A DNA stretch of 45,713 nt from Pseudomonadota bacterium (GTDB lineage: Bacteria > Pseudomonadota > Gammaproteobacteria > Xanthomonadales > Rhodanobacteraceae). Location of the stretch: positions 1 through 45,713 of the forward strand of contig JAJXYE010000266.1 in assembly GCA_021780735.1 (NCBI GenBank), written 5' to 3'. A program made the position numbers and the translations under genes. Shown piece after piece: positions 40,701 through 41,347 of the stretch. The notes beneath the pieces are model-generated. The model did no database searches. It was not told the DNA's origin and saw only the letters and a program-made list of their open reading frames with translations. Numbering within the stretch: the stretch's first letter is position 1; the number at the start of each line of letters is the position of its first letter.

Positions 40701-41012
40701 TCAACCGAGCTTGATCTGAACATCGACGCCAGCGGCGAGATCAAGCTTCATGAGCGCGTCCACGGTCTTGTCGTTCGGGTCGACGATATCGAGCACACGC
40801 TTGTGCGTGCGGGTCTCGTACTGGTCGCGTGCATCCTTGTCGACGTGCGGCGACGTCAGAATGGTGTAACGCTCGATCTTGGTCGGGAGCGGGATCGGAC
40901 CGAGTACCGTGGCACCCGTGCGCTTTGCCGTCTCGACGATCTCGCTGGCCGAGCGGTCGATCAGACGATGATCGTACGCCTTGAGCCGAATCCGAATCTT
41001 CTGGTTCGCCAT
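40701..41012 (-). CDS. rpsJ: 30S ribosomal protein S10
   Basis: [48 protein letters not shown]... Confidence 0.99.
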
Positions 41013-41125: not shown

Positions 41126-41161
41126 AAAAACGCCAAGCGAGCACCCATGGCTCGCCAAGCG
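41126..41161 (-). terminator. Intrinsic-terminator-like hairpin in the rpsJ leader
   Basis: Minus strand CGCTTGGCGAGC-catgggt-GCTCGCTTGGCG then TTTTTG. About 12-bp stem with one U-U mismatch and two G-U pairs. Confidence 0.6.
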
Positions 41162-41318
41162 AAATCTGTTATCACTCAAGACATCGCGACCTGCCGGAAT
41201 GATCCAGCGGTCACGTCGTCAAGCGAGGGCCATCTGGCCTGCGAACTCGAAGCACATCCTGTGCCTCATTTCGCGGTTTATCTCCCGAAGACAGGCTCCG
41301 GTTGATAGCAAGCTGCCA

Positions 41319-41347
41319 AGTATACCGGCAAATGCGCGACTAGTGAA
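41319..41347 (-). promoter_or_regulatory. Candidate sigma-70 promoter for the S10 operon
   Basis: Minus strand TTCACT (-35), 17-nt spacer, TATACT (-10), between tuf and rpsJ. Confidence 0.55.

Follow-up and report, generated by a model that had tools for sequence, protein, structure and literature searches.

On the minus strand of the window, by which we mean the whole stretch of 45,713 nucleotides that was analyzed, the stop codon of tuf is separated by 434 bp (41446–41013) from rpsJ (40701–41012, start at 41012), the first gene of the S10 operon, encoding ribosomal protein S10, that is, NusE. A promoter scan finds exactly one σ70-like site in this gap (0.2 expected in shuffles), namely, the promoter P1 of the S10 operon (TTCACT-N17-TATACT, 41347–41319, minus strand, as are all features below), with a predicted start at about 41312. 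Downstream of P1 follows a core hairpin (GCGAA-AU-GAGGCAC-AGGAU-GUGCUUC-GAG-UUCGC, 41274–41241), which was defined by covariation and a covariance model and is common to the leaders of the S10 and str operons; its apical part (GCACAGGAUGUGC, 41264–41252), with CAGGAUG, is identical to the repeat motif CAGGA(U/A/C)G of CsrB. Next come a second hairpin (GGCC-AGAU-GGCC, 41239–41228), whose loop reads AGA in the window and GGA in nearly all relatives, a third stem-loop of variable sequence (CUCGCUUGACGACGUGACC...GGUCGCGAUGUCUUGAG, 41227–41175), recognized from the fold and the alignment, and an intrinsic terminator-like hairpin (CGCUUGGCGAGC...GCUCGCUUGGCG plus UUUUU, 41161–41126), delimited by a terminator scan and the comparison of leaders; the window scan itself placed this hairpin at 41156–41136, with TTTTT running to 41126. 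Closer to rpsJ are a small hairpin (GGCGGUGAGAAGCCG, 41068–41054) conserved family-wide in the alignment and a boxA (GTTCTTTAGAC, 41037–41027), which sequence comparison marks as a candidate site for NusB–S10/NusE and which adjoins the rpsJ Shine–Dalgarno sequence (CAGGA, 41024–41020), also a GGA. The leader RNA is stable far beyond shuffled sequences on folding (z = −4.9). An earlier note on this DNA had described the 434-bp gap, the minus-strand promoter and a strong terminator-like hairpin with U5, all of which are confirmed here, and its spacings (about 150–160 nt from the start site to the hairpin and about 113 nt from the hairpin to rpsJ) are right; the span it proposed, 41126–41347, covers the terminator, while the A(N)GGA hairpins and the boxA were overlooked as recognition-like elements. 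The structured, conserved leader in the tuf–rpsJ gap is real, and its attenuator-type anatomy is shown by these features.

In a DNA search of related genomes, most species of the genus proved to have a matching leader; P1, of the type TTC[AC]CT-N17-TAYACT, is present in 29 of 31 leaders of the genus at a constant distance of 42–47 nt before the core. Alignment of 30 tuf–rpsJ gaps reveals, together with the constant P1, a near-invariant segment (ACCGCGAAATGAGG...CTTCGAGTTCGC) and an almost invariant stretch directly before rpsJ. The conservation of the hairpin, a check named in the earlier note, is borne out in that promoter, terminator, and intervening hairpin are all kept across the genus; between genera, the terminator stem varies in sequence with its pairing retained. 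Among 60 further rpsJ upstream regions, the same leader plan occurs in Rhodanobacteraceae (f1; Rhodanobacter, Dyella, Luteibacter, and Frateuria) and Lysobacteraceae/Xanthomonadaceae (f2; Arenimonas and others), and most other families have short tuf–rpsJ gaps without it. A terminator-like hairpin between core and ATG is found in 49 of the 53 rpsJ leaders among the matches listed in the pattern scan described below, versus about 1% of dinucleotide shuffles, and by this comparison across rpsJ leaders, the terminator is more than chance.

The core hairpin conforms to the consensus GCGAA-AW-GAG-stem-A(N)GGAN-stem-CUC-GWN-UUCGC, and covariation analysis, which had also been proposed for this leader, finds its pairs covarying in the S10 set and in the str set. 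In the former, 34 cells are changed on both sides versus 2.4 in shuffles, with 98.1% paired; in a separate test of the latter, both-sided changes are seen in 8 of 11 pairs (0/500 shuffles), and swaps in the lower helix include C–G to G–C and A–U to G–C. The covariance model of the core, R1, scores the window copy at 64.7 bits, the only strong match in its own draft genome, in which the window's contig ends inside rpsL and the rpoC–rpsL gap is absent from that contig. A second strong copy was found in genome G060 in the rpoC–rpsL gap, which is the leader of the str operon (rpsL-rpsG-fusA-tuf), and the order-wide search gives two copies, typically about 4.7 kb apart, in most Rhodanobacteraceae and many Lysobacteraceae genomes. 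Hence the same RNA element heads the S10 and str operons, and, being common to both, it may place them under one regulator. In families f3, f4, and f6, core matches occur before rpsL and none before rpsJ, the tuf–rpsJ gap being short; the simplest history would be that an old rpsL leader, serving a joint str–S10 operon, was duplicated to a position ahead of rpsJ in the ancestor shared by f1 and f2. Outside the order, R1 has no strong match in 369 genomes sampled from the class; the weak matches there are taken as chance: those inspected lie within or close to genes resembling spoT and glmS, and rpsL or rpsJ is present in none of the seven loci fetched around them. Three weak extra matches inside the order (L187–L189), likewise discarded, have no rpsL nearby. 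One str leader (L166, genome G092) is the sole str copy seen with AUCGAAU replacing A(N)GGA in the core loop, its stem being intact.

Because the earlier collection step had required GGA, the loop was left unspecified in a pattern scan of 84,980 genomes (CGAAAWGAGG-N(8-15)-CYTCGWGTTCG), which listed at least 121 matches: 60 before rpsL, 53 before rpsJ, two at contig ends, and six elsewhere. These counts, like those derived from them, refer to matches listed and take in related species, so that they are not independent events. Among the rpsJ and rpsL leaders listed (113 of the 121 matches), 112 of 113 have A(N)GGA in the core loop and 111 have another GGA within 30 nt, at 24–26 nt in 90. Compared with shuffles, the second hairpin around this GGA forms better in the rpsJ leaders and only modestly better in the rpsL leaders. 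The core is followed by a terminator-like hairpin also in 46 of the 60 rpsL leaders listed, versus about 1% or less of shuffles; the str leader of relatives has the same core, second GGA, and terminator. Finally, 33 of the 53 rpsJ and 34 of the 60 rpsL leaders listed have a second promoter-like site, P2, in the interval from the core to the start codon (shuffles, <1%).

The leader resembles that of the E. coli S10 operon, which is controlled by L4-dependent attenuation (PMC10931766), in being a long structured region before rpsJ with an intrinsic terminator hairpin and U tract; it differs in the terminator lying about 113 nt from rpsJ, the core shared with str, and the boxA. By eye, no likeness in sequence or structure to the E. 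coli leader (NC_000913, L031) is visible and the window has no match at gathering score in Rfam 15, in keeping with the earlier view that this leader is structurally distinct. Control by the S10-operon product L4 alone, however, is unsupported because the same core also stands before the str operon, and in three families before str only. To our knowledge, each known ribosomal leader is dedicated to a single operon and acts through a protein which that operon encodes. The present element precedes two large ribosomal operons across the Lysobacterales, an order with plant pathogens as well as biocontrol bacteria among its members. For rpsL, an upstream terminator, alike to that of the str leaders described here, was predicted in Xanthomonas and Pseudomonas by Naville and Gautheret in 2010 (PMC2965389); these authors saw no common feature among rpsL leaders, and the common core is not reported there, nor is rpsJ mentioned in their text, S10 figuring solely in connection with the operon attenuation already known from the E. 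coli type. Leaders bound by CsrA/RsmA and the CsrB/RsmY RNAs (PMC7652899; Rfam CL00106) are alike in their CAGGA(U/A/C)G or A(N)GGA loops and spacing of about 25 nt, whereas the present element has an extra conserved lower core, a ribosomal-leader location, and scores below the Rfam cut-offs. The shared core, GGA pairs, S10 copy, and boxA in this order are undescribed in the papers open to search.

We give a probability of about 0.45 to the reading that a trans-acting RNA-binding protein, most likely CsrA/RsmA, reads the attenuation-type leader of both operons, with a separate NusB–S10 brake on rpsJ. In the predicted mechanism, RNA initiated at P1 (about 41312) would fold the core and second hairpin and reach the intrinsic terminator about 150 nt on, where only a fraction of the polymerases would continue into rpsJ. 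A trans-acting RNA-binding protein that also governs the str operon would dock on the core and second hairpin, and whatever holds the core would decide how often the terminator is passed or how long the RNA lives. One CsrA/RsmA dimer may clamp both A(N)GGA loops, which are spaced by about 25 nt, and so set the amount of RNA passing the terminator or surviving. We infer that termination at the leader terminator is regulated; that RsmA favors expression during growth is a guess. If the loops are so read, ribosome synthesis would be tied directly to the global carbon-storage regulator.

We infer CsrA/RsmA as the ligand from several observations. CsrB loops carry CAGGA(U/A/C)G, and CsrA binds GGA in hairpin loops (PMC7652899); the core loop of the window, CAGGAUG, is an A(N)GGA in a hairpin loop, as in CsrA sites. 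CsrA is known to bridge two sites 10–63 nt apart, with an optimum above 18 (PMC7652899), a range into which 111 of 113 relatives among the matches listed fall, the second loop of the window being AGA. As judged from sequence, the hexaloops ANGGAN fit the general CsrA site, and the spacing of about 25 nt suits one CsrA dimer. CsrA is encoded in the genome (PF02599 match on contig C312, E = 4.5e-26). Among Rfam families, RsmY alone is matched by the str leaders at E values up to 0.5 (E = 0.01, L158; 25.5 versus a 57-bit cut-off); its first hairpin, GCGCAGGAAGCGC, is identical letter for letter to that of the str-side locus, and the window has a weak match to rsmX (E = 7; 12.9 versus a 56-bit cut-off). 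At an E-value threshold, none of the matches of 20 S10-side and 20 str-side loci reached the gathering score, and the best high-E matches (MIR4227, RNAI, mir-767, BASRCII26, and IRES_Bip) were taken as chance. Counting against CsrA, the core stem has 7–8 pairs, unlike the CsrA sites selected by SELEX, which are usually on short stems (PMC7652899).

The main rival to CsrA/RsmA is a ribosomal protein encoded in the operons themselves, because the lower core is conserved more strongly than CsrA would require and the second loop of the window has lost its GGA. The lower core (CGAA-AU-GAG / CUC-GUG-UUCG) is not needed by CsrA sites, and the degree to which it and the internal loop are conserved exceeds the demands of a GGA site, pointing to a ligand of higher specificity. 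According to this explanation, which we consider possible and somewhat less probable than CsrA/RsmA, the core mimics an rRNA site bound by a protein of the ancestral str–S10 cluster (e.g., S7, L4, or S3), which would repress both operons by promoting termination, comparable to the action of L4 on a different RNA in E. coli. The element is all but confined to two operons, both of them ribosomal, and the rpsL-only copy with a short tuf–rpsJ gap in f3, f4, and f6 is as expected for a once-joint operon. In addition, two segments of the core, CUCGUGUU and GAAAUG, are also found in 16S rRNA (1069–1084) at a separation of 10 nt, a likeness that is present but not beyond chance, being expected 0.22 times per rRNA-sized sequence, and that we therefore do not retain as evidence of mimicry. 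Further against a ribosomal protein is the A(N)GGA loop in both hairpins; we know of no L4 or S7 site that requires such a loop.

It is unlikely that the element serves chiefly as a non-coding RNA, in which case P1 or, at str, read-through from rpoBC would make a short terminated RNA acting in trans, which could soak up RsmA, the mRNA arising from P2 or read-through. Such an RNA would be consistent with the P2-like promoter between core and terminator in the leaders counted above, with the similarity to RsmY and rsmX, although below cut-off, and with the result that, across 61 genomes of the order, no match of the CsrB and RsmZ covariance models exceeds the cut-off. Each RNA would, however, offer just two GGA sites, P2 transcripts would begin at the same terminator hairpin, the promoter scan sees no P2 in the S10 leader of the window, and the element does not recur away from the S10 and str operons. 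A narrower proposal is improbable in our estimate, namely, that short RNAs ending at the terminator and bearing paired CsrA hairpins are released from the S10 and str leaders of Lysobacterales and act as a growth-coupled CsrA sponge; if true, ribosome synthesis itself would titrate RsmA in an order that yielded no CsrB/RsmZ-type RNA above cut-off. A strong P2 (TTGAC-N17-TATACT/TTAAAC) is seen in the core–terminator interval of L039, L033, L057, L182, L170, and others, its predicted start coinciding with the terminator hairpin, and in other genera the P2-like site falls where the third stem-loop sits. Because of this location of P2 in other genera, much of the mRNA may be free of the core, a point against the CsrA/RsmA reading.

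As for how the terminator could be controlled, neither the core nor the upstream segments show a pairing preference for the terminator of their own leader over terminators from other species. In single species, the core 3′ strand (GUUCGCUGG) looks well matched to the 5′ arm of the terminator (CCAGGCGAGC), but this candidate antiterminator was rejected on the same cross-species comparison, with the whole upstream stretch behaving likewise. With no antiterminator found, a classical two-state switch is not supported, and a better fit is offered by RNA protection or by a protein that modulates pausing or termination, as in E. coli S10. The lack of an antiterminator would also agree with a plain constitutive terminator that trims read-through, the conserved hairpins merely protecting the RNA, which we nevertheless deem very doubtful, since plain trimming needs no covarying two-operon core with a near-invariant loop between promoter and terminator.

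The boxA is confined to the rpsJ side: among the matches listed, the final 60 nt include GYTCTTT in 53/53 leaders of rpsJ and 0/60 of rpsL. Against the strict boxA GYTCTTTAANA within 50 nt of the start, the window has the GYTCTTT core and deviates in the last positions. The rRNA boxA sequences of a sister species also deviate from the strict consensus (GATCTTTGACA and GTTCTTTGAAAACA), and the spacer one, GTTCTTTGAAAACA, has the GTTCTTT core in common with the rpsJ boxA. Control of Nus-factor genes through boxA has been demonstrated in the case of suhB and suggested, in three genera, for rpsJ (Baniulyte et al., PMC5725501), where, as here, boxA lies close upstream of the Shine–Dalgarno sequence; the present site differs in having the GYTCTTT core only, the strict form being absent from the window, and in the added leader terminator. 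By its sequence, the rpsJ boxA is a candidate site of NusE autoregulation, at which surplus S10 (NusE) with NusB would repress rpsJ translation independently of the core, and this rpsJ-only site is a clean test case for such autoregulation. In one leader of the same genus (L026, G030:C582), the core and terminator are missing or replaced and the boxA end is intact. Family f12 (L075 and L076) has another conserved element with GGA (CGGTGGGGCGCARGCTCAWGGATGTGGCGAACG...GCGGCGYGAACACCGC) in the last 120 nt before rpsJ. At the other end of the gap, just downstream of tuf, L004, L010, L013, L016, and L018 carry a repeat-like element (AGTCCGGCATGGATGCCGG...GCCATCAGGGAGGATGGCTGA), partly duplicated in L018 and perhaps a mobile palindromic repeat.
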